The notes beneath the pieces were generated by a model. That model did no database searches, was not told the DNA's origin, and saw only the letters and a list, made by a program, of their open reading frames with translations. From Opitutus sp. (lineage in GTDB: Bacteria > Verrucomicrobiota > Verrucomicrobiia > Opitutales > Opitutaceae): 41,477 nucleotides of DNA. The DNA is taken from positions 1 to 41,477 of the forward strand of contig JANYAM010000288.1 of the NCBI GenBank assembly GCA_025361365.1, written 5' to 3'. Each line of letters opens with the position of its first letter. Position 1 is the first letter of the stretch. The position numbers were made by a program, and so were the translations under genes. Positions 18,129 through 41,477 of the stretch are shown here, piece after piece.

Positions 18129-18144
18129 GCCGCCGACTCTCCGT

Positions 18145-18172
18145 CTCTCATCTCTCAACTCTCAGCTCTCAA
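18145..18172 (+). repeat. Heptanucleotide array (CTCTCAN x4) just upstream of pdhB
   Basis: Four tandem 7-base units of CTCTCAN fill the space before pdhB, ending 11 bases before the ATG. It belongs to a family of short 7-nt arrays scattered over the window (see findings). It lies where a ribosome-binding site should be, and no AGGAGG-like site is seen. Confidence 0.9.
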
Positions 18173-18183
18173 CTTTCCGTCCC

Positions 18184-19235: not shown

Positions 19236-20579
19236 ATGGCCGACATCATCGATATGCCCAAGCTCAGCGACACCATGACGGTGGGCACGCTGGTCAAATG
19301 GCTCAAAAAGGAAGGCGACGCCGTCAAGGCCGGCGACATGCTCGCCGAGGTCGAGACCGACAAGGCGACGATGGAGCTCGAGACGTTCTTCACCGGCACG
19401 CTGATCAAGATCTACGCCCAGCCCGGTTCCCAGGTCGCGATCGGCGCCCCGCTCTGCGCCATCGGCAAGCCCGGTGAAGCCGCGCCCGACCTCGGCAGCG
19501 CTCCCGCGCCGGCACCTGCCCAGAAGACGGAAGCTCCTGGTTCGAATGTAGGGTCGCCGCTTGCCGGCGGACCGTCTCCCACAGCTGCTCCGGCACAAGC
19601 CACAGCCCCTGCGCCCGTGGTTGCTGCTCCGAGCTCCCCGCTCCCTGCTCCCAGCTCAATGGCCGAAGGCCGCCTGAAAATCTCTCCCCTCGCGAAGAAG
19701 ATCGCCGCCGACCAGAAAGTCGACGCCTCGCGCCTCACCGGCACCGGCCCGCACGGCCGCATCGTCAAGGCCGACGTCCTCGCCGCCGCGGCGAATCCCG
19801 CCCTGCTCAAGTCCGCTGGTGGTCCCGCTGGTTCGACTTCAGGTTTCAGGTCTCAGGTTTCAGGTTTCCCTGGATCGGGCAGCCCGATCCAGCCGGACCG
19901 GACCGTCCCCGTCTCCACGATGCGCGGCGTCATCGCCAAGCGCATGGTCGAGTCCACGACGACCATCCCCTACATCTACGTCGACATCGAGATCGACATG
20001 GAGTCGCTGCTGGCCATCCGCACCCAGCTCAACACCGGCCTCGAGGCCCAGGGCGTGAAACTCTCGGTCAACGACTTCGTGCTCAAGGCCTGCGCCGAGG
20101 CGCTGCGCCGCGTGCCGGCCGTCAACAGCTCCTGGCAGGGCTCCGGCGTCCAGTATTTCGGCGCCGTGCACATGGCCTTTGCGGTGGCCCTGGAGGACGG
20201 CCTCATCACCCCGGTCGTCCGCGACGCGCATGCCAAGTCCGTCTTTCAGATCAGCACCGAGGCCAAGGCCCTCGGCAAAAAGGCCAAGGAGAAGAAGCTC
20301 GCGCCGAACGATTACACCGGCGGCACCTTCTGCGTCTCCAACCTCGGCATGATGGGCATCCCGAAGTTCACCGCCATTATCAACCCGCCTAACTCCGCCA
20401 TACTCGCCGTTGGCACCACGGTCACCAAGCCCGTCGTGAAGCACGGCCAGATCGTCGTGGGCCAGACGATGACCGTGACGCTCAGTGCCGACCACCGCGT
20501 CTTCGACGGCGCCGTGGCCGCGCAGTATCTTGGCGCCTTCAAGGATCTGATGGAAAAGCCGGCGCTCCTCCTAGTTTAA
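19236..20579 (+). CDS. pdhC: Dihydrolipoyl acetyltransferase E2 of pyruvate dehydrogenase
   Basis: This 447-residue protein has one lipoyl domain (residues 1-80, lipoylated Lys43 in EVETDKATMELE), an Ala/Pro-rich linker (81-145), a peripheral-subunit-binding domain (148-182, KISPLAKKIAADQ and GTGPHGRIVKADV), a second linker (184-222) and the catalytic CAT domain ending with the HxxxDG motif SADHRVFDG. It transfers acetyl groups to CoA and is the structural core of the complex. Both linkers contain translated copies of dispersed repeats: NVGSPLA (104-110), APSSPLPAPSS from a heptanucleotide array, and GFRSQVSGF (203-211). An E3 dihydrolipoamide dehydrogenase is not in the window. A terminator follows at 20616-20648. 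Confidence 0.97.
   Translation: MADIIDMPKLSDTMTVGTLVKWLKKEGDAVKAGDMLAEVETDKATMELETFFTGTLIKIYAQPGSQVAIGAPLCAIGKPGEAAPDLGSAPAPAPAQKTEAPGSNVGSPLAGGPSPTAAPAQATAPAPVVAAPSSPLPAPSSMAEGRLKISPLAKKIAADQKVDASRLTGTGPHGRIVKADVLAAAANPALLKSAGGPAGSTSGFRSQVSGFPGSGSPIQPDRTVPVSTMRGVIAKRMVESTTTIPYIYVDIEIDMESLLAIRTQLNTGLEAQGVKLSVNDFVLKACAEALRRVPAVNSSWQGSGVQYFGAVHMAFAVALEDGLITPVVRDAHAKSVFQISTEAKALGKKAKEKKLAPNDYTGGTFCVSNLGMMGIPKFTAIINPPNSAILAVGTTVTKPVVKHGQIVVGQTMTVTLSADHRVFDGAVAAQYLGAFKDLMEKPALLLV
19626..19660 (+). repeat. Heptanucleotide array (GCTCCNN x5) inside the first pdhC linker
   Basis: Five 7-base units (GCTCCGA, GCTCCCC, GCTCCCT, GCTCCCA, GCTCAAT) in frame encode APSSPLPAPSS. The unit sequence differs from all other arrays in the window except in length. 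Confidence 0.8.
19839..19891 (+). repeat. Heptanucleotide array (TCAGGTY x4) and small palindrome in the second pdhC linker
   Basis: Four 7-base units (19839-19866) encode GFRSQVSGF. A perfect 10-bp inverted repeat around one base follows directly at 19871-19891. The same heptamer unit recurs upstream of and within other genes. Confidence 0.9.
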
Positions 20580-20584
20580 TGGAG

Positions 20585-20604
20585 GGCCCGCGTCCCTGCG
20601 GGCC
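20585..20604 (+). repeat. Hairpin repeat after pdhC
   Basis: A 7-bp stem (GGCCCGC...GCGGGCC) lies 6 bases after the pdhC stop. With its flank it is a copy of the left half of the 5975-6022 palindrome. Confidence 0.8.
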
Positions 20605-20615
20605 ATTTCCTCTCA

Positions 20616-20648
20616 AGGCGCGCCACCCGGCGCGCCTCGTTTGTTTTT
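20616..20648 (+). terminator. Terminator of the pdh operon
   Basis: A perfect 9-bp stem (20616-20624 and 20629-20637, AGGCGCGCC and its inverse) with a 4-nt loop is followed by CGTTTGTTTTT. The T-run passes into a GTTTTTAACACAG repeat copy (20643-20655). Confidence 0.8.
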
Positions 20649-20700
20649 AACACAGCGGTCCCAGAGATCACAGTGGTCGATCTGGGCTCCTGTTAGGTAT

Positions 20701-20898
20701 ATGAGATCTAGGATCAGTTCTGTCACATTCGGGGATGAAATTCCGCTTCTGGAGAAAGAAGGATCCGAACCCATCCGGGAGGAGGATCCAAGCGAGCGCA
20801 GTTCCACGCTCGTTATCGCGGTCCTCTCCCTCTTCGCCGTGATCGCCAGTAGCTGGGTCCTGGTTTACGCCCTGCCCGCTGACCGTTGGAGCATTTAA
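20701..20898 (+). CDS. Small 65-residue single-span membrane protein, unknown
   Basis: This short reading frame begins at ATG 20701 and encodes an acidic N-terminus (GDEIPLLEKEGSEPIREEDP) and one hydrophobic helix (STLVIAVLSLFAVIASSWVLV) before a short polar tail. A clear membrane helix in frame argues for a real gene; the ribosome-binding site is weak (AGG 6 bases upstream). No family is recognised. It sits alone in the 527 bases between pdhC and the phosphoglucomutase gene, whose remaining parts hold dispersed repeats (20585-20655, 20919-20943, 21041-21104) and no other gene I can support. Confidence 0.5.
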   Translation: MRSRISSVTFGDEIPLLEKEGSEPIREEDPSERSSTLVIAVLSLFAVIASSWVLVYALPADRWSI

Positions 20899-21040
20899 AC
20901 AAGATCGTAGCCGGACGAATGCAAAGAGCGCAAAGGTAACCTTTCAGGGCATTCCCCTCCGTGATCTATGCGTTCTTTCGTGGCAAAATTTCTGGTTTAA
21001 CAGCGCTACCGCGCTTGGCCCCGCCCGGTTTAAAGCACCC

Positions 21041-21104
21041 GTTAAACGCAAAGACGCGAAGCCGCAAAGAAAGCCCTTCGCGTCTCTGCGTCTTTGCGCT
21101 AAAT
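21041..21104. repeat. Palindromic dispersed repeat downstream of phosphoglucomutase
   Basis: A 64-base imperfect inverted repeat, ends AAACGCAAAGACGCGAAG and CTTCGCGTCTCTGCGTCTTTGCG, ends 3 bases after the phosphoglucomutase stop. It matches the 16883-16946 element. It could act as a transcription end for the minus-strand gene. Confidence 0.85.
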
Positions 21105-21106
21105 CC

Positions 21107-23059
21107 TCAGGTTTCCGATGCGCGCTTGCGCGCATCGGCTTCGATCAGTGCCTTGAGCGCATCGAGCGTCGCCTTGGCCTTCGCTTTCGCGGCGGGCAGG
21201 TCCGCGGCGCCCTTCACCGGCTCCTGCGCGAAGAGGTAGAATTTCATCTTCGGCTCCGTGCCGCTGCCGCGCGCGGCGAATGAATACCCGTTGGCGAGCG
21301 TGACAAGGTAGAGATCCTGCGCCGGGATGAGTTCACCATCCGTGTCGTAGAACTTCTCGCGGCCGAAGTCCTGGAACTTCGTCACCTTCGTGTCGCCAAA
21401 CGCCTTGGGCGGGGCCGAACGGTAGGTGTCGAGGATGCGCTTGATCTTCGCCGCACCGCTGGCGCCTTCGTAGTAGATGTTGATGACACCCTCGAGGAAG
21501 AAGCCGTATTTCAGATAAATCTCGTCGAGGTATTCCGGCACCGTCAGGCCGCGCGATTTCACCCACGCGCAGACCTCGGCGAACATCAGGCACGCCGCGT
21601 TGCCATCCTTGTCGCGCAGCAGGTCGTTCGGCAGGTAGCCGTAGCTCTCCTCGGTGCCGAAGAGGTAGAACGTGCTGTGCTTCTGCAAGAGCGCGGCGCG
21701 CTCCTTGAACGGCGTGCCATCATAATCGAAACCCGGGCCCATCGCCTTGGTGAGCTTCTCCTCGTAGCCGCGCATCTTGCCCGCGATCCACTTGAAACCG
21801 GTCAGCGTATTGATGACCTTCACCTTGTGGCCGGCGCCAATCGCATCCTGCAGCGGCGTGGTGACAAAAGTCTTGATGATCGCGGCCGACTGCGTGCCGG
21901 CCGCCGGGATCCAGCCGAGCTCCTTGTATTTCGCGATGCGATAGTCGGCCATCAGCGCGCCGACCTGGTTGCCGGTGAGCAGCTCGAGCTGGCCGGCTTT
22001 GTTGCGCACCGCCGCACCCATGCGGTCGTCATCGGGGTCCGTCGCCATCACGAGGTCGTGGCCGCCCTTGTTGGCGAGCGCGAGCGCCAGCGTCATCGCC
22101 TCGGCGTTCTCCGGGTTCGGCGACTTCACCGTCGGGAAACGCGGGTCAAAGGCCAGTTGCTCCGGCACCGGCGTCACGTCTACGCCGGCCTGCTTGAGCA
22201 AGGGGATGGCCGAGACCGCACCGACGCCGTGGATGTTCGTGTAGACCACCTTCAACGGGGCCTTCTTGAAAATCGTCGGGTCCAACAAGGCCTGGGCCGC
22301 CGTCGCGAGATAAGCGGCATCGGCCTGCGACCCGAGCGTGGTGACCTTGGTGATGTCTTTCTTCAGGAATTCGTGCACGGCCGACAGCGGCACGGCATCC
22401 ACCTCGGCGATGATGCCCTTGTCGTGCGGCGGCGTGACCTGCGCGCCATCATCGAAGTAGGCCTTGAAGCCGTTGTCGTGCGGCGGATTGTGGCTCGCTG
22501 TGATGACCACGCCCGTGTGCGCCTTCAGGTAGCGCACCGAGAAACTCAGCTGCGGCGTCGAGCGCGGGCCGTCGAAGATCACCGCCTCGCCGCCCAGCTT
22601 CGTCCAGGTGGACGCGGCCAGTTCGCAAAAATGCCGCGAGAAATGCCGGATGTCGTGCGCGATGACGATCTTCGGCTTGGCCTTGCTCTTCTGCGCCGCG
22701 AGGTATTTCGCGATGTAGCGGTGCAGGCCGATGATGGCGCGGGTCAGGGTGAATTCATTGAGCAGGTTGCTACCGACGTTGGCGTGCTCGGGCGAGCCGG
22801 TGGCGCTGAGCGTGCCGGTCTCGGCCTTGGCCGCCACGCGGCCAATGGTGCGGCCCCGCATGCCGCCGGTGCCGAACTCGAGGTAGCGGTAGAAGCGGTC
22901 GTTGAGTTCGCTCCATTCGCCGCGCTCGATCAGCTCGGCCAGGCTCGCCTGCGCCCAGGCGGGCAGGCCGCCCTGCAGCCAGGCATTCAGGTTGTCGGCG
23001 GCGCTTGCCATCAGTTTGCCGTCCTTGACGGCCGCGGAAATTTTATCGATGGAGCTCAT
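21107..23059 (-). CDS. Phosphoglucomutase / phosphomannomutase family enzyme
   Basis: This 650-residue alpha-D-phosphohexomutase interconverts hexose 1- and 6-phosphates via a bisphosphate. The FGTGGMRGR block (residues 62-70) is followed by the phosphoserine loop TASHNPPHDNGFK (Ser189), the metal loop ATDPDDDRMG, the sugar-specificity loop FGTEESYGYLP and the phosphate-binding RGSGTEPKMKFYL. All catalytic parts are intact. It is longer than the common 460-residue bacterial enzymes, which fits the PgcA/PGM2 type; substrate (glucose or mannose) is not certain. The next gene upstream, a UDP-sugar pyrophosphorylase, uses hexose 1-phosphates, which supports a joint role in nucleotide-sugar supply. 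Confidence 0.93.
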   Translation of the reverse strand: MSSIDKISAAVKDGKLMASAADNLNAWLQGGLPAWAQASLAELIERGEWSELNDRFYRYLEFGTGGMRGRTIGRVAAKAETGTLSATGSPEHANVGSNLLNEFTLTRAIIGLHRYIAKYLAAQKSKAKPKIVIAHDIRHFSRHFCELAASTWTKLGGEAVIFDGPRSTPQLSFSVRYLKAHTGVVITASHNPPHDNGFKAYFDDGAQVTPPHDKGIIAEVDAVPLSAVHEFLKKDITKVTTLGSQADAAYLATAAQALLDPTIFKKAPLKVVYTNIHGVGAVSAIPLLKQAGVDVTPVPEQLAFDPRFPTVKSPNPENAEAMTLALALANKGGHDLVMATDPDDDRMGAAVRNKAGQLELLTGNQVGALMADYRIAKYKELGWIPAAGTQSAAIIKTFVTTPLQDAIGAGHKVKVINTLTGFKWIAGKMRGYEEKLTKAMGPGFDYDGTPFKERAALLQKHSTFYLFGTEESYGYLPNDLLRDKDGNAACLMFAEVCAWVKSRGLTVPEYLDEIYLKYGFFLEGVINIYYEGASGAAKIKRILDTYRSAPPKAFGDTKVTKFQDFGREKFYDTDGELIPAQDLYLVTLANGYSFAARGSGTEPKMKFYLFAQEPVKGAADLPAAKAKAKATLDALKALIEADARKRASET

Positions 23060-23069
23060 AAATTCAGAG

Positions 23070-23097
23070 ACCTGAAACCTGAGACCTGAGACCTGAA
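23070..23097 (-). repeat. Heptanucleotide array (ACCTGAR x4) upstream of phosphoglucomutase
   Basis: Four 7-base units lie 11-38 bases before the ATG at 23059. On the minus strand the unit is YTCAGGT, the same as at 19839 and 23173. Confidence 0.9.
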
Positions 23098-23172
23098 AAG
23101 GAAATGCCGAAAACAGGGGCTGCCCAAATTCCGGTTTCAGCGGAAGGCTTTCCGGCTCTTAGCTCCGAAATT

Positions 23173-23200
23173 TCAGGTCTCAGGTTTCAGGTCTCAGGTC
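23173..23200 (+). repeat. Heptanucleotide array (TCAGGTY x4) between sugar genes
   Basis: Four units lie just after the stop of the pyrophosphorylase gene, in opposite orientation to the 23070-23097 array, so the two form a large inverted pair about 75 bases apart. Confidence 0.9.
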
Positions 23201-23213
23201 TCCATCTCGAGTC

Positions 23214-24791
23214 CTACTCGAGATACAGCCCGTCGGCGACGACCGGCTTGATCGGCAGGGACTGCCAGCGCGCAGTGAACGAGTCGGTGTCATACCCGAA
23301 GAGCGGGGAGATTTCCAACCCGCATTTGGGCAAACCGGTGGCGTCGTTCTCGACCGTGGCACCCACGGCCCTCAGCCAGCGTGCAAACTGCCGGAGTTGG
23401 TCGTCGCGGCAGGTCTGCGGCGAGTCGACGCCCTCGGCGTTCTTGACCGGGCTGAAGTCGTCCGCCCGGGCCGTCTCGATCACGATGGAGTTGTCGGCAA
23501 AGGGCAGCGCATCGAAGACGAACATCTCGAACTTCACGCCGTTGGCCGACGACGGCCGGACGACGGCGCCCTTTTCATCGATAGTCTGGATCTTCTTGTC
23601 TGCGCGGTGAAAGGGCAAGGTCGGCACGGAAGCAGCCGTCGGGAAACCTGAAACCTGAGACCTGAGACCTGACGCCGAAACCTGAGTAGAAGACAAAGAA
23701 GCCTTGGGATCGGACCCTTCAGGTTTCAGGTTTCCGGTTTCAGGTTTCTGTTCGCCCGTCGCCATGCGGCGGGCGAACTCGCGGTCGATGATGTGGATTG
23801 CGATGCTGCCGGCGCTGTAGCGGAGCGACCCGTCGGCGTTCGTCTCCCGCTGCATCGCCATCGGCATGTCGCTGTATTCTACCACGACGACCTTGCCGTT
23901 CTGTCGGCAGAAATGCCCCACCTTCTCCTCGGGATAGGCCTTGGGGACCATCTTGCTCGACATGCCGGACTTCGCCAGCAGGTGAAAACCAATGAAGGCC
24001 GGATCGATGCAACGCACCAGCGGGTTGTCCACCTGGAAGTAACTGATGGTGTCGATGCCTTCTTTCGCCATCAAATCGAGCGCTCCGCTGCGATGCAACG
24101 CGCGCAGCGAGCCGCCATGACCATCGGGACTCAAGGCGAGCGACGAACGCGTCTCGAGCAGGATCTTGCCGTCGAAACCCACCGCCGGCATGCGACCCTG
24201 GCGGAAGAAATGCACGCGGGCTTTGTCCAAGCCGAAGAACTTGTTCGCCGCGAAGAACTGCTCCGTCTGCTCGTGGTTGGCGTGGCTGGTCATGATGAAC
24301 CAGTGTAGTGGCTTCCCGTAGCGCAGGCCGGCCGCCTTGATCTTTTCGGCGAAGACTTGGAAGAGGGGTTTATTTTTGAGCGGCGTGACGGCAAACGTTC
24401 CTTTCGGGCCGTCGTAGCCGAGGCGCGTCCCCTGCCCGCCCGCCACTGTGAATGCGGCCACGCGGCCCCCGCGCAACGCCGCTTCGCCCGCGGCCTTGGC
24501 CGCCGCCCACTTCGCCGGGTCGCCGTGCCCTTCGGAGCCCTTGGGCGAAGTAGGGCCGCCGTTCTCCGGCAGGCGCTCGCATGGCGCTGGCGCGAGGCCA
24601 GCAAGGTTCACGCCCGCCCCGCCTTGGTTCAGGACCAGCGTGCGGTTCAGGCGCTCGACCTCCACGAGATCGATCTCGGCCGCCTGGTTGGCCAGCGCGG
24701 CGCGTTCGCTCGGTGGCAGGAAATCCCAGAAGGCAAAAACCTGGCCCTGGCCGGCGGCTTGGTAGGAGGCGATCAATTGTTCAATTTCCAT
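23214..24791 (-). CDS. UDP-sugar pyrophosphorylase (UDPGP/UAP1-type)
   Basis: This 525-residue uridylyltransferase has the nucleotide-binding loop VAGGQGTRLGYDGPKG (residues 116-131), the uridine-binding region around MTSHANHEQTEQFF and the LPFHRADKK and FEMFVFDALPF blocks typical of UDP-N-acetylhexosamine pyrophosphorylases (UAP1/AGX). It would join UTP and a sugar 1-phosphate to give UDP-sugar. Residues 346-391 (starting GEQKPETGNLKPEGS and including GLRSQVSGF) are not family sequence; they are translated dispersed arrays lying between REFARRMA and LPFHRADKK. A further repeat-derived stretch is at about residues 76-94 (ENGGPTSPKGSEGHGDPAK). Despite these the frame is open throughout. Substrate (GlcNAc, GalNAc or glucose) is not certain. 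Confidence 0.9.
   Translation of the reverse strand: MEIEQLIASYQAAGQGQVFAFWDFLPPSERAALANQAAEIDLVEVERLNRTLVLNQGGAGVNLAGLAPAPCERLPENGGPTSPKGSEGHGDPAKWAAAKAAGEAALRGGRVAAFTVAGGQGTRLGYDGPKGTFAVTPLKNKPLFQVFAEKIKAAGLRYGKPLHWFIMTSHANHEQTEQFFAANKFFGLDKARVHFFRQGRMPAVGFDGKILLETRSSLALSPDGHGGSLRALHRSGALDLMAKEGIDTISYFQVDNPLVRCIDPAFIGFHLLAKSGMSSKMVPKAYPEEKVGHFCRQNGKVVVVEYSDMPMAMQRETNADGSLRYSAGSIAIHIIDREFARRMATGEQKPETGNLKPEGSDPKASLSSTQVSASGLRSQVSGFPTAASVPTLPFHRADKKIQTIDEKGAVVRPSSANGVKFEMFVFDALPFADNSIVIETARADDFSPVKNAEGVDSPQTCRDDQLRQFARWLRAVGATVENDATGLPKCGLEISPLFGYDTDSFTARWQSLPIKPVVADGLYLE
23646..23686 (-). repeat. Heptanucleotide array (ACCTGAR x4 plus 1) inside the pyrophosphorylase gene
   Basis: Four units (23646-23673) plus a separate unit (23680-23686) encode GLRSQVSGF on the minus strand. 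Together with the array at 23719-23746 they make up the extra residues. Confidence 0.9.
23719..23746 (+). repeat. Heptanucleotide array (TCMGGTT x4) inside the pyrophosphorylase gene
   Basis: Four units in opposite orientation to the 23646 array. On the minus strand they encode KPETGNLKPE, the same peptide as in the GspB-like protein. Confidence 0.9.
24510..24566. repeat. REP-like repeat inside the pyrophosphorylase gene
   Basis: The segment beginning TCGCCGTGCCCTTCGGAGCC resembles 26657-26705 in the GspB-like gene (first 12 bases identical, similar spacing after). It is translated in frame on the minus strand into a Gly/Pro/Ser-rich stretch before the nucleotide-binding loop. Confidence 0.65.
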
Positions 24792-24810
24792 GGCGGGATT
24801 CAGGAATTTT

Positions 24811-24893
24811 CGCCGCGGATAGCGCGGATGATACGGATAAATGAGGAGTCGGGTTACATGTTCCCATCCGTGCCATCTGCGTTATCCGCGGGA
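24811..24893. repeat. Palindromic dispersed repeat downstream of the FtsB-like gene
   Basis: An imperfect inverted repeat of 83 bases with ends CGCCGCGGATAGCGCGGATG and ATCTGCGTTATCCGCGG lies between the FtsB-like gene and the pyrophosphorylase gene. It is the same family as 25218-25306. Nothing else is seen in this gap. Confidence 0.85.
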
Positions 24894-24911
24894 ATGCATT
24901 GGTCGTCATCT

Positions 24912-25202
24912 TCATTTCTTCTCCTCTTCGAACCTAAAAACAAACTCCGCGCCCTTGGCGTAGCCGAGCTTCTGGCGGATCAGTTGTTCGACCAGGACCG
25001 GATCGTGGCGCAACTGCTCCAGGTATTTTTCCTGGGTGGACAGCCGCGCTTCCGCGTCGGCCAGCCGGCGCTGGTTGAGGCTCTCCTGGCCGCGCAGCGC
25101 GGTGATGTCGCGGTGCATCTGCACGAAGAAGCTCACGGCCCACAGGGTTACCCCCACAAATAGCGCGCCATAAAATCCAAGGATCAGCTTGCTGAAATTC
25201 AT
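24912..25202 (-). CDS. FtsB/DivIC-type septum formation initiator
   Basis: This 96-residue protein has a short cytoplasmic start, one membrane helix (about residues 6-26, LILGFYGALFVGVTLWAV) and a coiled coil (EARLSTQEKYLEQLRHDP) that ends in VEQLIRQKLGYAKGAEFVFRF. The KLGYAKxxE ending is the DivIC/FtsB hallmark. In characterised bacteria this protein forms the FtsQLB complex and helps activate septal cell-wall synthesis. ATG 25202 (MNFSKLI) is chosen; in-frame sequence upstream is a dispersed palindrome. It is bracketed by two copies of one palindromic repeat (24811-24893 and 25218-25306). Confidence 0.88.
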   Translation of the reverse strand: MNFSKLILGFYGALFVGVTLWAVSFFVQMHRDITALRGQESLNQRRLADAEARLSTQEKYLEQLRHDPVLVEQLIRQKLGYAKGAEFVFRFEEEKK

Positions 25203-25217
25203 GCCAAGCCCTCGGAA

Positions 25218-25306
25218 TTTCCCGCGAATAGCGCGGATGCAGCGGATAAAGGCATATCCAGGATGGTTTGTTTCCATCCGTGTTCATCCGCGTGATCCGC
25301 GGGAAA
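25218..25306. repeat. Palindromic dispersed repeat upstream of the FtsB-like gene
   Basis: Arms TTCCCGCGAATAGCGCGGAT and ATCCGCGTGATCCGCGGGAA form an inverted repeat about 89 bases long. The same core recurs at 24811-24893 and as a fragment inside a kinase gene (39658-39690). Confidence 0.85.
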
Positions 25307-25441
25307 ATGCTTTGGTGCGGTTCGATTCATTCTGTCTGCCCAATCCGTGGTCAAAAGCCCGGCACGGGCAACGTTTTTCAAAACCTATTCACGCGGTTTT
25401 GGCGTGCTTTTTCCCGTGCGGCCCAGATAGTTGCCCACGCG

Positions 25442-26257
25442 ATGTATCAAAGCTACTACGGTTTTACGGAGATGCCGTTTCACATCACTCCGGACCCGAA
25501 GTTCCTCTACCTCAGCGCCACCCACCAGGAAGCCCTGCAGCACCTGAAATACGGCGTTTCCGAGAAAAAGGGCTTCATCGTGCTCATCGGCGAGGTCGGC
25601 TGCGGCAAGACCACCCTCTGCCGCAAATTCCTGAGTGAACTCGACCCCAACCACTACGACACCGCCTTGGTCCTCAATCCGCGCGTCACCGAGACGCAGA
25701 TGCTCAAGGCCATCCTGACCGAGCTCGGCGAACCCAACCTCGCCCGCAGCAAGAACGACCTCGTCGCCCAGATGAACCAGGTGCTGCTCGACCGCATCGC
25801 CAACGGTCGCGAGATCGTCCTCATCATCGACGAGGCCCAAAACCTTTCCTTCGAGGTCTTCGAGCAGGTGCGCCTCCTATCCAATCTCGAGACCGACAAG
25901 CAAAAGCTCCTGCAGATCGTCCTGATGGGCCAGACCGAGTTGAAGGACCGCCTCGCCGCCGAGGAACTCCGCCAGCTCCGCCAGCGCATCCTCGTCCACT
26001 ACGAGCTGCGGCCCTTCACCCGCGACGAGATGGACCGCTACATCCACCACCGCCTGACGGTGTCCGGCAGCATGGGCCGGCCCCATTTCACGCCCTGGGC
26101 GCTGCGCCACCTCTTCAAGGCCAGCCGCGGAATTCCGCGCATCATCAACAATCTTTGCGACAAGTCGATTCTCTCGGCCTTCATCCGCGAATCCGACGAA
26201 GTCAACTACTGGGACGCCCGCCGCGCCGCGAAGGATCTGGAAAAGCTCACGGATTAA
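25442..26257 (+). CDS. ExeA-like AAA ATPase of a type II secretion / pilus system
   Basis: This 271-residue AAA ATPase begins MYQSYYGFTEMPFHITPDPKF, the family start. It has Walker A GEVGCGKTT (about residues 50-58), Walker B IVLIIDEAQNLS, sensor-type GQTELKDRL and a C-terminal lid (ASRGIPRIINNLCDKSILSAF). ExeA in Aeromonas pairs with ExeB to help the secretin cross the peptidoglycan. Here the ATPase part is complete but the C-terminal peptidoglycan-binding domain of full ExeA is missing, so it is a short version. The downstream gene encodes a GspB/ExeB-like protein, 117 bases away, so the two probably act together. ATG 25442 is chosen; the upstream extension is not family sequence. Confidence 0.93.
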   Translation: MYQSYYGFTEMPFHITPDPKFLYLSATHQEALQHLKYGVSEKKGFIVLIGEVGCGKTTLCRKFLSELDPNHYDTALVLNPRVTETQMLKAILTELGEPNLARSKNDLVAQMNQVLLDRIANGREIVLIIDEAQNLSFEVFEQVRLLSNLETDKQKLLQIVLMGQTELKDRLAAEELRQLRQRILVHYELRPFTRDEMDRYIHHRLTVSGSMGRPHFTPWALRHLFKASRGIPRIINNLCDKSILSAFIRESDEVNYWDARRAAKDLEKLTD

Positions 26258-26272
26258 GCGCGCTCGCCGAGA

Positions 26273-26360
26273 AAGCTGAAACTTGAAAGCTGAAATCAAT
26301 GCCTCAATCTCAAAAATTCCCTCTGTTTGCTTTTCAGCCTTCAGCCTTCAGCCTTCAGTT
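26273..26360 (+). repeat. Two heptanucleotide arrays upstream of the GspB-like gene
   Basis: The first array (26273-26293: AAGCTGA, AACTTGA, AAGCTGA) and the second (26333-26360: TTCAGCC x3, TTCAGTT) differ in unit; the second is partly the inverse of the first. The ATG at 26375 follows 14 bases after the second array. They fill the gap after the ExeA-like gene. Confidence 0.88.
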
Positions 26361-26374
26361 TTCCAGTAAACTCC

Positions 26375-27124
26375 ATGAGTTTAATTAACGACGCCCTTAA
26401 GAAGGCCCAGAAGCAGCGGACCGGCGACGCCCCGTCGCTGGGTTCGATGCCGAGCGTTGGCGGACAGTCGGCCGCGTCCATCTCCCGCAGCGGCAAATCG
26501 AGCGGCAACCCGCTGCTGCTTCCGGCCGGCATCGGCGCCGGCGTGCTGGTCCTGGCGATCGGCGGCTATTTGGCGCTGAGACAGAAACCTGAAACCGGAA
26601 ACCTGAAACCGGAAGGTTCCAAGGCCACGGCCGCTTCCAATGTAGGGTCACCGCTCGCCGTGCCCTCCGGAGCCTCAAGCGAAGGACGGGCCGGCGGACC
26701 GGCGGTCGTGGCAAGTCCGTCGTCTGTCGTCCGGCCTCCGTCGTCTGAGCCGGCCGCCGCTCCGGCTTTCACCCTTCAGGTCGCACCAAAAGCGGAGACA
26801 CCGCCGGCATCTCAGGGCTCCTCGTCAGCCGTAGGCCCGGCGAAGGCTGAAGGTTTCAGGTCTCAGGTTTCCGCGCCGGTTCAAGCTTCAGAGCCGGCGA
26901 AACCGGCTCTGAAACTTGAACCGCGCGCGATGACCTTCATCGAGAACATCAAGGTGGCGGGCATCCGCGCCTCGGCCACGGACAGCAAGGTGCTGATGAA
27001 CGACCGCGTCTACCGTGTCGGCGACATGGTCGAGCACGAGATGGCGCTCAAGCTCGTGGGCATCACCAGCAACTCCCTCACCTTCGAGGACGAGCACGGC
27101 GGCCGCTTCACCCGGACCTTCTGA
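26375..27124 (+). CDS. GspB/ExeB-like protein with repeat-built linker
   Basis: This 249-residue protein begins MSLINDALKKAQKQR, typical of GspB/ExeB-type proteins. It has a membrane helix at about residues 48-68 (LLLPAGIGAGVLVLAIGGYLAL), a long low-complexity linker (69-183) and a C-terminal domain (184-249, MTFIENIKVAGIRASATDSKVLMND and so on to FTRTF) like the GspB C-terminal SH3-like domain that binds the secretin N-domain. The linker is mostly built from dispersed DNA repeats in frame: KPETGNLKPE (71-80), NVGSPLAVPSGASS (89-102), SSVVRPPSSEP (116-126), EGFRSQVS (159-166) and VQASEPAKPALKLEP (169-183). It lies downstream of the ExeA-like ATPase. Confidence 0.87.
   Translation: MSLINDALKKAQKQRTGDAPSLGSMPSVGGQSAASISRSGKSSGNPLLLPAGIGAGVLVLAIGGYLALRQKPETGNLKPEGSKATAASNVGSPLAVPSGASSEGRAGGPAVVASPSSVVRPPSSEPAAAPAFTLQVAPKAETPPASQGSSSAVGPAKAEGFRSQVSAPVQASEPAKPALKLEPRAMTFIENIKVAGIRASATDSKVLMNDRVYRVGDMVEHEMALKLVGITSNSLTFEDEHGGRFTRTF
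26587..26614 (-). repeat. Heptanucleotide array (ACCKGAA x4) in the GspB-like linker
   Basis: Four alternating units ACCTGAA/ACCGGAA are read on the plus strand as KPETGNLKPE. On the minus strand it is TTCMGGT-like, the same as 23719-23746 in the pyrophosphorylase gene. Confidence 0.9.
26641..26751 (+). repeat. REP-like repeat and heptanucleotide array in the GspB-like linker
   Basis: Bases 26641-26661 (TGTAGGGTCACCGCTCGCCG) match pdhC 19549 with two differences and encode NVGSPLA in both. The following 26657-26705 resembles the pyrophosphorylase repeat. Bases 26717-26751 are five 7-base units (CCGTCGT, CTGTCGT, CCGGCCT, CCGTCGT, CTGAGCC) encoding a SSVVRPPSSEP peptide. Confidence 0.75.
26849..26923 (+). 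repeat. Heptanucleotide array and 21-bp palindrome in the GspB-like linker
   Basis: A short TCAGGTY array (26849-26869, three units, the first imperfect) encodes GFRSQVS. A near-perfect inverted repeat follows: arms 26877-26897 and 26903-26923, one mismatch, 5-nt loop. Both lie in frame. Confidence 0.85.
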
Positions 27125-34591: not shown

Positions 34592-37486
<2,895 letters not shown>

Positions 37487-37496
37487 GGAGTGATGG

Positions 37497-40400
37497 TCAG
37501 CGGCTGCGGGCCGGCGGGCGGGCTGCGGGCAAGTCGAGGTTTGCGGGTGAGGTCGGGTCGGGCTCCAGCACCGCAATCTTGCCCAACGCCTCGCTTTCCG
37601 CCGTCGTCCGCCACTCGCCGCCGGTGCCGTATTGGATCATTTCAAGATAAGTGGTCGCCCCCTCCTCCAACTGCACCTGCCGTTTCAGCAGCTCGATGCC
37701 CAGCACCCGGGCGGCCACGGTGTGAGCGCCCGGGGCCAGCTCCTTCACCCAATAAGTGCCATTGGACAGTTTGCCGACCACGGCATCGTCAAGTTTCAGC
37801 GTGACCGATCCGCCGCCTACATAGCCGACCTTTTCGCGAAAGAACACTAACCGGGTCGGCTGTGGCGCGGCGGGCGCCTCCTGGCTGATATTCACCGGCC
37901 CGTCATAGGGTGCCGCGGAGACTTCCAGTTTGGAATCAGTATCCACCACCAGCTCGGTGGCAGCCGGCGCGCTGGCCGGAGTCGCCTGCCGCGAGCGGGG
38001 GGCCGCCACGGACCCAAACAATGAAACCGCGCCCCCGGTGCTTCCGCTCCCGGCGAGGGGCGTGTCGCGGATCTGGGTTCGACCGCTGAGATCAAGAACC
38101 GCATGGCTCACATAGCCCGCCGCGACCTCGATTCGCAGCCGCAGCGTGCCGCGCACGGAACCCGAGCCGGTCTCACTCATGCCCGCGGGAATCTGCCGGT
38201 TCGGCAGATCGACGTCCCCGTTGAGTTCAAAACTGCATTCCACGTCCGCCCACGGCTGCGCCGCGTCGCGGTCAAAGCTGATGAGACGGGCCCGGATGGC
38301 ACCCTGCGGATTGCGCAGCTTTAAGCCCGGTATTAGCGCCGGCGCCGCCCGCACCGGCACATCCCACGTCGCCCCGGCGCTCGCCTCGCCCTGCGGCCAG
38401 ACATCGGGACTCAACCACAGGCCCGCGTAGGAAGGTGTCAGCGCGGGCGGCTGTTGGGCACTCACCGCACTGCCTTCCATCATCTTGCCAGACCACTCAT
38501 TGCTGAAATTGCGCTGGAAACGAATGATGCTCCCCGGCTTGATCCTGTTTGCGTCCGGGATGGTGCCGGTCAGCGACTCAAAGTGTGCCAGGACTGCGTT
38601 CCACTGACCGTCGCGCCCCGGGTCGGACAGCTCATAGACACTCGAGGAGCTGCCCTGATAGTGCTCCGGTTTCATTGGCGTGACTGTGGTTCCTGTCTGT
38701 GTCTGGCCCTTGATCTGGTAATCGTGCTGCTTGGTGACACGCAACCGGACCGGGCCCTTGGTGAAATCGGGCTTCAGGGCCAGCAACGGTTTCAATTGCA
38801 GGGTGGCTTCCCATATCTGCGGGTGATCCGCGTCCGGGATGGTCAGGGTGTGCTTCTCGGGGCGATAACGATCCAGCCGCAGCTCGAGGTCGACGGGCTG
38901 GTTGAAGCCGATGTCGTCCACCGTCAGCGGCGTCGGGCCGAGGGACACGCCGCCGCGATAGACCGCCGCCCCGGCCGGGGTGGATTTCACGGTGATCCTG
39001 CCGCCGCGCAGATCAGCCGTCAGCGGCAGGCTTTCGCCGCGCTTCACCTCCACCAAGCGGCTGAAAGCCGGGCTCCAGCCGGGGCGCTCGGCGCGGAATT
39101 CGTAGCGGCCGGTCGGTAATGTCACCTCCGCCGGCAGGTTGCCCTCGGCCACGGCTTCGGCACCTCCCTTGCCGGCCGCATGGATTTGATACTTCGCCGG
39201 GCCGGCCGGGAGGGCGGAAAGGGCCAGCGCACCGGTCGAGCGCACGAGCTTGTAGCCCCACTCGTTTGCGCCTTTCTCCACGACCGTGATTTTCTCGACC
39301 AGATCCTCGTAGCCATCCAGGCGGACATGCACGGTGTGCGCTCCGAGCTTGAAATCGGCCCGCGCCAGCGGGCTGAGCCCAGTGATGTCGTCGTCCACCC
39401 GCACCTCAGCCCCGGCCGGGTCGGTGGTGATTTTGCCGGACAAGCGCAGATTGGCGAGCCGCTGTTCCTCGGCCTGTCGCGCGCGCTCGGTCAGGCTCTT
39501 TTGCTCAGCCTGTCGGGTGATCTCCTGCTGGCGGGCCTGCTCCGCCGCGAGGCGCTGTTGCTCCGGTGCGTGCAAACCAAAATACCAGCCGAGCCCGCCG
39601 AGCAGGACGAGGGCGGCGGCTAGGCCGGCATAGAGGGGAGTCTTGGATTTTGGCGGATTCTCCGCGGATCGCGCGGATGAGATGGATGCTGAGCGCGCCC
39701 GGAGGTCGCGCTCCACCTTTTCCGCAATGGGGCGTTGGGCGTTCAACGTTGAGCGTTGAGCGTTGGCCCCCAGGCCAAGGCGTTCCGCGACCTCTCCCGC
39801 GCTCTGCGGGCGGTCGGCTGGTTCCTTGGCGAGGCAGGCGGCGATGGTCTGCTCCCAGGCGGGCGGGAGCGGAGCGGCCTTGAGCCCAAACTCCTGGCGC
39901 CGTTCGCTCATCGGTGGCGCCACCTTGTCCTGCACCTGCAGCACAATGTTGCCGGAGTGAAACGGGGGCTTGCCCGTGAGAAGGTCGTAGAGCGCGGCGC
40001 CGAGGGCGTAGATGTCGTCGGTGACGGCGGGTTTTTCGCCCATCATCTGTTGCGGCGCCATGTAGACCGGCGTGCCGGAGGAGCCGGCCTGGCGGGAAAC
40101 CCGGGACACACTGTCGGCGATGCTGGTGGCGATGCCGAAATCGGTCACCTTCACGTCGCCGGCGGCATCGATCATCAGGTTGGCGGGCTTGAGGTCGCGG
40201 TGGACAACCTTGGCTTTGACGTGCGCATAGTCCAGGGCGTCGCAGATCTGCCCGACCCATTTGGCAATATCCGCCGGCTCGTAGCAGTGGCCGGGCCGCT
40301 CCGCCCGCGCGTTGGTCAGCGTTTCGCCCGTGATGTATTCCATCGCGATGGCCGCGGTGCGCCCATCCTCGACAAAATCATAGATGCGCACGATGTGGCT

Positions 40401-40640
40401 GTGCGTGAGATCGAGACTGCGCCGCGTTTCGCGCTTCAGGTCGGCGAGGGCCACCTTGTCCCCCATCAACACCTCGGGCAGGAACTTCAGGGCGACTTCG
40501 CGCTCGAGCTTGTCGTCCCGGGCCAGCCAGACGACACCCATGCCGCCGCGGCCAAGGATTCGGCTCAGCGTGTAGCGGCCGAATACTTTTTGCCCGGTGG
40601 CGAAACCCTTGATGGTAGAACCGAAATCGAGGTCGTCCAT
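37497..40640 (-). CDS. Transmembrane Ser/Thr kinase with PEGA domains and DUF2846-like C-terminus
   Basis: This 1047-residue protein has a kinase domain (about residues 22-290) with LGRGGMGVVW, Lys52, HRDLKPANLM (Asp149) and DFG at 167-169. The APE position reads APQ (MAPQQMMG). A linker (291-333) with translated repeat peptide (ANAQRSTLNAQRP) and a membrane helix (334-355) follow. Outside, two PEGA domains (about 400-455 and 548-605) and a large middle region lie before a C-terminal domain (about 931-1047: RLVFFREKVGYVGGG, VVGKLSNGTYWVKELAPG). That domain looks like DUF2846-type sequences and is shared with the next gene. It lies between the two other kinase genes; gaps are 10 and 9 bases, so one operon. 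Confidence 0.93.
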   Translation of the reverse strand: MDDLDFGSTIKGFATGQKVFGRYTLSRILGRGGMGVVWLARDDKLEREVALKFLPEVLMGDKVALADLKRETRRSLDLTHSHIVRIYDFVEDGRTAAIAMEYITGETLTNARAERPGHCYEPADIAKWVGQICDALDYAHVKAKVVHRDLKPANLMIDAAGDVKVTDFGIATSIADSVSRVSRQAGSSGTPVYMAPQQMMGEKPAVTDDIYALGAALYDLLTGKPPFHSGNIVLQVQDKVAPPMSERRQEFGLKAAPLPPAWEQTIAACLAKEPADRPQSAGEVAERLGLGANAQRSTLNAQRPIAEKVERDLRARSASISSARSAENPPKSKTPLYAGLAAALVLLGGLGWYFGLHAPEQQRLAAEQARQQEITRQAEQKSLTERARQAEEQRLANLRLSGKITTDPAGAEVRVDDDITGLSPLARADFKLGAHTVHVRLDGYEDLVEKITVVEKGANEWGYKLVRSTGALALSALPAGPAKYQIHAAGKGGAEAVAEGNLPAEVTLPTGRYEFRAERPGWSPAFSRLVEVKRGESLPLTADLRGGRITVKSTPAGAAVYRGGVSLGPTPLTVDDIGFNQPVDLELRLDRYRPEKHTLTIPDADHPQIWEATLQLKPLLALKPDFTKGPVRLRVTKQHDYQIKGQTQTGTTVTPMKPEHYQGSSSSVYELSDPGRDGQWNAVLAHFESLTGTIPDANRIKPGSIIRFQRNFSNEWSGKMMEGSAVSAQQPPALTPSYAGLWLSPDVWPQGEASAGATWDVPVRAAPALIPGLKLRNPQGAIRARLISFDRDAAQPWADVECSFELNGDVDLPNRQIPAGMSETGSGSVRGTLRLRIEVAAGYVSHAVLDLSGRTQIRDTPLAGSGSTGGAVSLFGSVAAPRSRQATPASAPAATELVVDTDSKLEVSAAPYDGPVNISQEAPAAPQPTRLVFFREKVGYVGGGSVTLKLDDAVVGKLSNGTYWVKELAPGAHTVAARVLGIELLKRQVQLEEGATTYLEMIQYGTGGEWRTTAESEALGKIAVLEPDPTSPANLDLPAARPPARSR
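39658..39690. repeat. Fragment of palindromic dispersed repeat inside the kinase linker
   Basis: Bases with the core TCCGCGGATCGCGCGGATGA match the arms of the repeats around the FtsB-like gene (24811 and 25218). It is translated into SISSARSAENPP in frame. Confidence 0.75.
39732..39766 (+). repeat. Heptanucleotide array (RCGTTSR x5) inside the kinase linker
   Basis: Five 7-base units (GCGTTGG, GCGTTCA, ACGTTGA, GCGTTGA, GCGTTGG) are translated on the minus strand as NAQRSTLNAQRP. The equivalent array in the neighbouring kinase is at 36565-36606. Confidence 0.9.
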
Positions 40641-40649
40641 GTGCGGTGT

Positions 40650-41477
40650 TCAGCGGCTGCGGGCAGGCTGTGGAGCTGCGGGCAAGTCGAGGTTTGCTGG
40701 CGAGGTCGGGTCGAGCTTCAGGATTCCGATCGTTCCCAAGGCTTCACTTTCCGGGGTCGTTCTCCATTCGGCGGACCATGCAGTTGGGCTCCATTCCAGA
40801 TAGGTGGTTGCTCCTTCCTGAAGCTGCACCGGCCTTGTCCCAATTTCTATGCCCAATTGACTCGCGGTAACGGTGAGGACTCCAGGGGGAAGCTCCTTTA
40901 CCCAATAGGTGCCGTTGGACAGTTTGCCGACGACCTTGCCATTAATTTTCAAACTAAAAGAAGCCGACCCGACATAAATGACTTTTTTGCGAAAGAACAC
41001 CAATCGGGTAATTTTCGGCACGGTGCGCGACAGCGCCAGGCTGACCCCGGTCTGGCGCTCCGCCGTGACCTGCTTGGTCGCCGGATCAAAGCCGGCCAGA
41101 CTCATCACCACCTGGTAGTCGCCCGGCGCCTGATCGGTGAGCTGCAACGGCGTGGTTCCCACCACACTTCCATTCAATGACACCTGGGCTCCGGGCGGAT
41201 CGGATCGAAGATCCAGCCCAACTCCCTGAAGGTCGGCGGCGAGGTTCGCCGACTCGTTGCGTTTCACCACCAATGATTTTTCCACTGGCCGCCATTTTGC
41301 GCGTTGCAAGCTCACCCGGTAGGTGCCCGGCGGCATCTGGTCCTGGGTGAAGGGTGTGACCCCCTCGAAATGCCGGCTGTTGCCGTCGAGCGAAACCTTC
41401 GCCCCGGCCGGATCGCTCGTGATGACGGCCGACCCGGTCAGCGAAATCAGCCGCACCAAGCCCGACCTGGTTTCCTC
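40650..41477 (-). CDS. C-terminal part of a third PEGA-domain protein, probably a kinase (cut by window edge)
   Basis: The frame is open to the last base of the window, giving 275 residues. Two PEGA domains are visible (ITSDPAGAKVSLDGNSRHFEG and LRSDPPGAQVSLNGSVVG). The final 118 residues are a close copy of the C-terminus of the next gene (RLVFFRKKV, VVGKLSNGTYWVKELPPG, EGATTYLE, EWRTTPESEALG, DPTSPANLDLPAA). The N-terminal kinase domain would be outside the window; I assume it by comparison with its neighbours. A TTG codon at 41459 is not the real start. Confidence 0.85.
   Translation of the reverse strand, partial: EETRSGLVRLISLTGSAVITSDPAGAKVSLDGNSRHFEGVTPFTQDQMPPGTYRVSLQRAKWRPVEKSLVVKRNESANLAADLQGVGLDLRSDPPGAQVSLNGSVVGTTPLQLTDQAPGDYQVVMSLAGFDPATKQVTAERQTGVSLALSRTVPKITRLVFFRKKVIYVGSASFSLKINGKVVGKLSNGTYWVKELPPGVLTVTASQLGIEIGTRPVQLQEGATTYLEWSPTAWSAEWRTTPESEALGTIGILKLDPTSPANLDLPAAPQPARSR

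Follow-up and report, generated by a model that had tools for sequence, protein, structure and literature searches.

We analysed a stretch of 41,477 nt from an Opitutus sp. draft genome (contig JANYAM010000288.1 of assembly GCA_025361365.1), hereafter the window, in which three genes for unrelated proteins encode the same short peptides. The proteins are the E2 subunit (PdhC), a UDP-sugar pyrophosphorylase and a protein called GspB-like by an earlier, sequence-only reading (Table 1). The E2 subunit carries GFRSQVSGF at residues 203-211 and NVGSPLA at 104-110; the pyrophosphorylase carries KPETGNLKPE at 349-358 and GLRSQVSGF at 375-383; and the GspB-like protein, with orthologues in 8 of 9 relatives' stretches, carries KPETGNLKPE at 71-80, NVGSPLA at 89-95 and GFRSQVS at 160-166. 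All these positions agree with the sequence-only reading, which had attributed the peptides to nucleotide repeats rather than protein homology. The counts bear this out: the window has 37 occurrences of the heptamer TCAGGTY where 7.46 (standard deviation 3.13) are expected, about fivefold and a number reached by 0 of 100 shuffles, and the 3.56-Mb genome holds 74 adjacent TCAGGTY doublets, with 0 in a reversed-letter control. TCAGGTY is indeed read in both directions, as had been proposed, with the correction that a single hairpin element supplies both peptides, RSQVSGF from one arm and KPETGNLKPE from the other. The pair inside the pyrophosphorylase gene has a hairpin energy of -60.1 kcal/mol (z -8.4 against shuffles), and the intergenic pair near its 3' end one of -77 kcal/mol (z -9.3). 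NVGSPLA had been placed in the same repeat set; it appears instead to belong to an unrelated family, the GTAG-tagged repetitive extragenic palindromes (REPs).

Table 1. Genes and repeat features of the window (coordinates in the window; TRF, Tandem Repeats Finder)
Feature	Coordinates	Strand	Basis
E2 subunit (PdhC)	19236..20579	+	Pfam lipoyl PF00364 5-76, E3-binding PF02817 148-182, acyltransferase PF00198 220-446
UDP-sugar pyrophosphorylase, UDPGP family, UDP-GlcNAc pyrophosphorylase-like fold	23214..24791	-	PF01704; Foldseek
GspB-like protein (name from the sequence-only reading)	26375..27124	+	no Pfam family at 1e-5
Single four-unit TCAGGTY module encoding SGFRSQVSGF, E2 linker 2	19838..19868	+	31/31 module matches; period-7 score 18, 0/500 shuffles
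Pyrophosphorylase coding arm, open direction, encoding SGLRSQVSGF	23643..23672	-	30/31 module matches
45-nt loop separating the pyrophosphorylase arms	23673..23717	.	
Second pyrophosphorylase arm; reverse strand encodes KPETGNLKPE, in-frame TGA is GGA	23718..23748	+	30/31 module matches
Intergenic TCAGGTY arm, adjoins start of gene 21107-23059	23067..23096	-	
Convergent partner of the preceding arm, close to pyrophosphorylase 3' end	23173..23202	+	
Arm encoding KPETGNLKPEG, TGA>GGA, GspB-like linker	26584..26614	+	
Partial TCAGGTY arm encoding GFRSQVS, GspB-like protein	26851..26871	+	TRF 3.0 units; 26/31 module matches
GTAG-tagged REP (candidate) encoding NVGSPLAGGP, E2 linker 1	19548..19573	+	stem forms, no more stable than shuffles (z -0.23)
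Degenerate GTAG REP (candidate) encoding NVGSPLA, GspB-like linker	26642..26668	+	no stem; folds no better than shuffles (z 1.08)
GCTCCCN heptamer array, E2 linker 1	19626..19657	+	TRF period 7, 84% matches
GAAAGCT units, left arm of intergenic heptamer pair	26271..26295	+	TRF
TTCAGCC x3.7, right arm of the GAAAGCT pair	26333..26358	+	TRF
CTCAACT/CTCAGCT heptamer array, directly upstream of called PdhB start (18184)	18144..18174	+	TRF

The module was characterised on 105 arms from five genomes, most of the own-genome stretches and many of the others having been picked for holding arrays. It is about 31 nt long and usually comprises four tandem heptamers, reading YTCAGGTYTCAGGTYTCAGGTYTCAGGTYTC in the aligned arms. 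Four units are present in 69 arms, two in 15, three in 8, five in 10 and more in 3. Substitutions in four-unit arms fall mostly in the third unit (30 of 56, with TCAAGT, TCAGCT and TCCGGT recurring), and this pile-up together with the four-unit length points to copied subfamilies, not free slippage. Of 103 arms (two too near a contig end were left out), 39 have a convergent partner, with RACCTGA units first and TCAGGTY second, and every pair enters this count through both its arms; a divergent-side partner was found for 0 of 101 testable arms. The two arms are separated by 13-172 nt (32-55 nt in 21 of 39). Modules without a strict partner number 71, and 63 of these are also partnerless under a looser test. 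On contig C1 of a relative (G012; these are our genome handles, G000 being the genome of the window), TCAGGTC arrays of 11 and 14 units near 1633291 and 2187344 look slipped.

According to gene calls from our own codon-usage script, 37 of the 105 arms lie in genes and 68 are intergenic. After setting aside five intergenic arms without a gene on both sides, the 3' end of TCAGGTY points to the nearer gene in 54 of 63, at a median of 28 nt, the gene on the far side lying at a median of 201 nt; of the single intergenic modules, 38 of 46 face the nearer gene (medians 39 and 324 nt, p 9e-6). The element is dispersed genome-wide and sits at gene borders in a preferred orientation. Across the phylum, three consecutive TCAGGTY units were found in 22 of 288 genomes and 16 of 151 genera, and two of the 22 also match the reversed pattern.

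The pyrophosphorylase insert was followed through 38 genomes, own included, of which 36 matched, one (G019) by a stray stretch alone; the related loci are the best 80 of 382. Most relatives give two pyrophosphorylase matches flanking the missing insert. The linker pattern failed at 12 of 110 loci, and an 8-residue linker occupies the insert site in 57 of the 98 readable orthologous loci, some genomes being counted twice under a G handle and a named contig. As the sequence-only reading had anticipated for orthologues, the TCAGGTY insert is rarely shared: beyond G000, modules occur here only in G012 and G017, which are of the same genus. Other genomes hold other repeats at this site, namely a REP-like dimer with a GTAG tag (G014, G009), another hairpin-like sequence (G018) and a GGAGAAG heptamer array (G008). 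Period-7 arrays were found in four of the nine linkers of at least 28 nt, the 18 of 27 that are shorter being left unscored. In the structure model of the protein (mean predicted local distance difference test score, pLDDT, 85), residues 349-387 form the longest segment below 50, so modelling places the insert in a disordered loop, as had been predicted; the E2 model was too poor (mean pLDDT 39) to extend this. The best Foldseek match of the pyrophosphorylase model is 8yp3_C, with template modelling scores of 0.78/0.87. The same protein has a small insertion, PTSPKGSEGHG (window 24522-24557, residues about 79-90), without counterpart in the seven other rows of alignment A1 and partly of low confidence, residues 79-85 being a second segment below 50.

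Modules were found in genes for a range of proteins. Pfam-based assignments include the E2 subunit, the UDPGP-family pyrophosphorylase, PurL, GcvP, UvrA, PolX and a DNA topoisomerase A subunit, and further an SDR, a DegT aminotransferase, a Polysacc_synt_2 protein, an RsmB/F methyltransferase and others; short names such as PurL, GcvP, UvrA and PolX are what we take the Pfam matches to denote. Three linkers were compared across genomes, an array being called at shuffle p <=0.01. (i) For GcvP, 19 of 21 loci were taken and 18 gave a linker; five of these hold a period-7 array, with the words TCAGGTY (twice), CTCAACT, CCTCTCG and CTCCGTY. Six of the 18 linkers hold variants of PLHHDNGGHHM, whose place is taken by the TCAGGTY array in G000, and we take this peptide to be the probable older state of the linker. 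(ii) For UvrA, 18 of 21 loci were taken and two rows aligned elsewhere (L280, L282) were dropped, leaving 16; five have a period-7 array (TCAGGTY, CTCCCGC, CTCAACT, AATCGAG and a fifth word), REP-like dimers tagged GTAG or GCAG occur at three others, and two have a short linker. (iii) E2 linker 2 could be read in six of the eight genomes with an E2 match and holds a period-7 array in four, TCAGGTY in three and CTCAACT in G018; the E2 repeats fall between the lipoyl, E3-binding and catalytic Pfam domains. The remaining linkers at the GcvP, UvrA, E2 and pyrophosphorylase sites gave no significant period 7.

PurL shows the same variability between two relatives. Near residue 1073 there is TCAGGTY in G000 and an inverted pair of CAAGTAA/TTACTTG-like heptamers in G012, and near residue 410 a module is present in G012 and missing in G000; some module sites are likewise empty in one of two close relatives. 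At a further PurL site (L064 3961-7983, L216 5349-9443), G000 has ACAGAGGTC-like units arranged as an inverted repeat, and the inverted repeat found in G012 is not the same one. PolX (L077 1781-3046) has an in-frame GTAG-tagged REP dimer of about 80 bp in G000 and none in G012. In short, the insert is often missing from orthologues, or its site is occupied by a different heptamer word or by a REP. The core idea of the sequence-only reading, that repeats spread into coding genes and are tolerated there as linkers, is supported, with the amendment that a repeat can replace host sequence and that different repeats can share one site.

By tag and palindrome, the NVGSPLA repeat resembles GTAG-tagged REPs, and so do the inserts seen in G014, G009 and PolX. 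The string GTAGGGTCRCC was counted 8 times in 302 kb of own-genome sequence, the E2 and GspB-like copies included, and 0 times in a reversed-letter control; a looser REP pattern, GTAGGGCG[CG], gave 22 matches against 14 in the control and was dropped. According to the accessible text of Di Nocera et al. (2013, PMC3733652), GTAG-tagged REPs of Opitutus terrae sit inside coding genes, both uvrA genes included. They resemble the present REPs and modules in being palindromic repeats in coding genes, uvrA among them, and differ from the modules, which are tandem heptamers, in being GTAG-tagged palindromes of 20-40 bp (same source). By eye, no constant tag was seen beside the TCAGGTY modules in the flanks of the 105 arms, which sets them apart from the GTAG REPs.

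A six-frame check shows that the TCAGGTY strand is free of stops in all frames and that the opposite strand has TGA in all three. Single modules inside genes, orthologues included, lie in the open direction in 21 of 22 cases, the lone exception being at a gene end. Read backwards, a four-unit arm has its TGA codons in phases 0, 1, 2 and 0, and one T>G change that turns the second TGA into GGA opens a single frame, KPETGNLKPE. This change is present in all seven paired reverse arms inside called genes of the sample; two pairs among them are orthologous, so that five different genes are involved. The TGA>GGA variant has 12 copies in 5 of 21 genomes searched. Long open frames hold 10 of the 12, all in one frame and in up to eight different genes, including those for the pyrophosphorylase, the GspB-like protein, PolX and a topoisomerase subunit, and two copies (L238, L240) lie outside called genes. 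Since the variant is nearly always in its one open frame, the coding copies resemble a subfamily that can enter genes in one frame.

We favour, at a probability of roughly 0.6, the reading that the shared peptides are translations of an interspersed module that is copied as a short patch and survives as a neutral linker in open, flexible places. New copies would arise when an existing module is copied as a short DNA patch during repair or replication, by template switching or gene conversion; we infer patch copying because the array can replace host sequence, as in GcvP, and is not merely added. Copies landing in an open frame in flexible parts of a protein would then persist as neutral linkers, and GTAG REPs may reach the same linkers by a separate route. 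Several points weigh against this reading. No copying event with its donor and recipient was observed, and the modules could not be tied to any enzyme or pathway. Many arms (36 of 105) have a length other than four units, and the disordered-loop placement comes from one well-modelled insert, that of the pyrophosphorylase. Independent insertion at a tolerant linker explains the word differences as well as rewriting does. The open direction of in-gene single modules is partly forced, because an open reading frame cannot cross the stop-bearing strand. Finally, gene calls were self-made, and in-gene modules near first codons (L206, L211, L214) may precede the true start.

The main rival is a REP-like route, because Y1_Tnp matches occur in 9 of 9 genomes searched, with seven in the own genome. 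The heptamer hairpins would then be non-autonomous elements moved, as REPs are, by Y1 tyrosine transposases of the RAYT (REP-associated tyrosine transposase) or IS200 kind, and single modules would be decayed halves. The strict polarity of module pairs fits this route, as does the occurrence of REP-like inserts in the same linkers and genomes as the modules. We nevertheless think it unlikely, given the array that replaced host sequence in GcvP, the lack of a constant tag in flanks judged by eye, and the 63 modules that stay partnerless under the looser test. Inverted arms are present, as in miniature inverted-repeat transposable elements, but no clear target-site duplication of that type was seen at the PurL, SDR, PolX, GcvP and UvrA sites, where alignment edges are ambiguous. 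Strand usage is divided: in G016 the strand of single modules follows the chromosome halves, roughly by GC skew (26 thinned arrays, 2 strand changes, permutation p 1e-5), which would suit transposition, whereas the pattern finds no support in G003 (10 arrays, p 0.58) or G012 (18 arrays among 100 listed of 125 matches, p 0.84). Agreement with the GC-skew halves, estimated from twenty 12-kb samples per genome, was 22/26 in G016, 7/10 in G003 and 11/18 in G012, and dnaA did not mark the skew boundaries. A replication-linked orientation is not claimed as a general rule, being seen in G016 but not in G003 or G012.

Ordinary microsatellites offer another account, in which polymerase slippage favours 7-nt units and each array is born in place. 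Slippage is a published idea for heptamers (cited in the accessible text of PMC4692102), the long arrays of G012 look like its product, and period 7 leads among short tandem arrays at a strict score, whatever the unit. The window holds nine period-7 arrays by that score and at most one of any other period from 4 to 13, and in a wider sample, with some genomes counted twice, period 7 accounts for 38 arrays, period 9 for 19 and any other period for at most 11. With a looser score, by contrast, period 7 is matched in frequency by periods 6, 9 and 12 in G003 and the other Opitutaceae. Nor do a unit at dozens of unlinked places, the four-unit preference, the third-unit changes and the convergent pairs follow from slippage, which we regard as rather improbable. 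Pairs were also counted at the looser score: in four genus samples there are 25 inverted against 2 direct period-7 pairs, five inverted pairs of period 9 and none of period 5, 6, 8, 10, 11 or 12, and in the other Opitutaceae sample 7 inverted against 6 direct, no clear excess. Units other than TCAGGTY make up 12 of the 32 inverted period-7 pairs, and 10 of these 12 have a purine-rich left arm. The GAAAGCT/TTCAGCC pair of Table 1 folds at z -2.0, with 7 of 200 shuffles as good.

Other repeats were noted in the window. A GCGTTGA array of 4.9 copies lies at 39732-39765, within a called 1047-codon gene (37500-40640). A CCGCGGATAGCGCGGATGATACGGATAAA-like interspersed repeat has two copies 86% alike at 24813-24841 and 25222-25250, and a third, 79% alike, at 39662. 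Segments at 36617-37876 and 39771-41029 are 71-80% alike at a spacing of about 3154 bases, likely a tandem duplication of large genes.

A more radical idea, which we hold to be a long shot, is that bacteria write four-heptamer modules at DNA ends by a process so far unrecognised, each genome using its own word; between species the word may change while length, period and position stay. Adding the same word to the 3' host-strand end on both sides of a break would yield pairs that converge and whose arms face genes, and the heptamers of Xanthomonas, Geobacter, Nostoc and Beggiatoa would represent further words written in this way. Templating by a reverse transcriptase was considered separately and rejected: RVT_1 matches number 0 in the own genome and in G012, and two of nine genomes have one, so a telomerase-like enzyme of that family is unavailable in these two.

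Selection at the protein level, with linkers rich in G, S, Q, V and P favoured and the peptides convergent, would agree with the interdomain position of the E2 inserts and the disordered-loop position of the pyrophosphorylase insert; it is excluded as main cause by the 68 of 105 sampled arms that are intergenic, and since the module is read in two directions and orthologues use other peptides we find it very improbable. An assembly artefact or chimera, conceivable in a draft of 297 contigs, has a negligible chance, as near-complete relatives show the same elements at the same sites: G012, a single 4.15-Mb contig, at the pyrophosphorylase, E2, SDR and PolX sites, and G016, in two contigs, at the E2 site.

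Annotators should be aware that peptides of the QVSGFRSQVS or KPETGNLKPE type are translated repeats and do not indicate homology. The GcvP, UvrA, PurL, E2 and pyrophosphorylase sites form a natural series for following module gain and replacement.

Among known heptamer systems the closest is GGGAATC of Xanthomonas, for which the accessible text of Rehm et al. (2015, PMC4692102) gives four units as the most frequent length, inverted pairs of convergent polarity that number 70 and 75 in two species, mean distances of 28 and 160 nt to the nearer and the farther gene, and no leading or lagging strand preference. TCAGGTY modules are alike in mostly having four units, in their convergent pairs and in median distances to genes of 28 and 201 nt. 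The differences, by the same source, are that GGGAATC forms G-quadruplexes, whereas TCAGGTY has at most GG and cannot form one, and that 89-93% of GGGAATC repeats are intergenic, whereas 37 of 105 TCAGGTY arms lie in called genes and a coding-adapted variant exists. Because its unit does not form a quadruplex, TCAGGTY shares the Xanthomonas architecture but is not filed in the G-quadruplex family. GGACCGG of Geobacter metallireducens comprises 49 copies of four-heptanucleotide elements, described as predicted regulatory RNA elements in the accessible text of a 2009 paper (PMC2700814); four tandem heptamers in genes and between genes are common to both, and the unit differs. TAACTGA of the Beggiatoaceae occurs in two to six copies, mostly just upstream of start codons, with one indirect repeat only in the accessible text of MacGregor (2015, PMC4679880). 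Like TCAGGTY it has stops in all frames of one strand and none on the other, and its in-gene copies are mainly in the open direction or at gene ends; the open-strand unit is TCAGTTA there and TCAGGTY here (same source).

In the open-access literature we found no paper that joins these heptamer systems or describes TCAGGTY modules in Opitutaceae; the four-heptamer repeats of Xanthomonas and Geobacter are treated separately and discussed as G-quadruplexes or regulation. New here, by comparison, are a unit unable to form a G-quadruplex, a coding-adapted variant, and heptamer words that change at conserved protein sites. Together, the non-quadruplex unit, the several unrelated words found within one genus and the change of word from genome to genome at a given linker argue that period and length are conserved, not the word.

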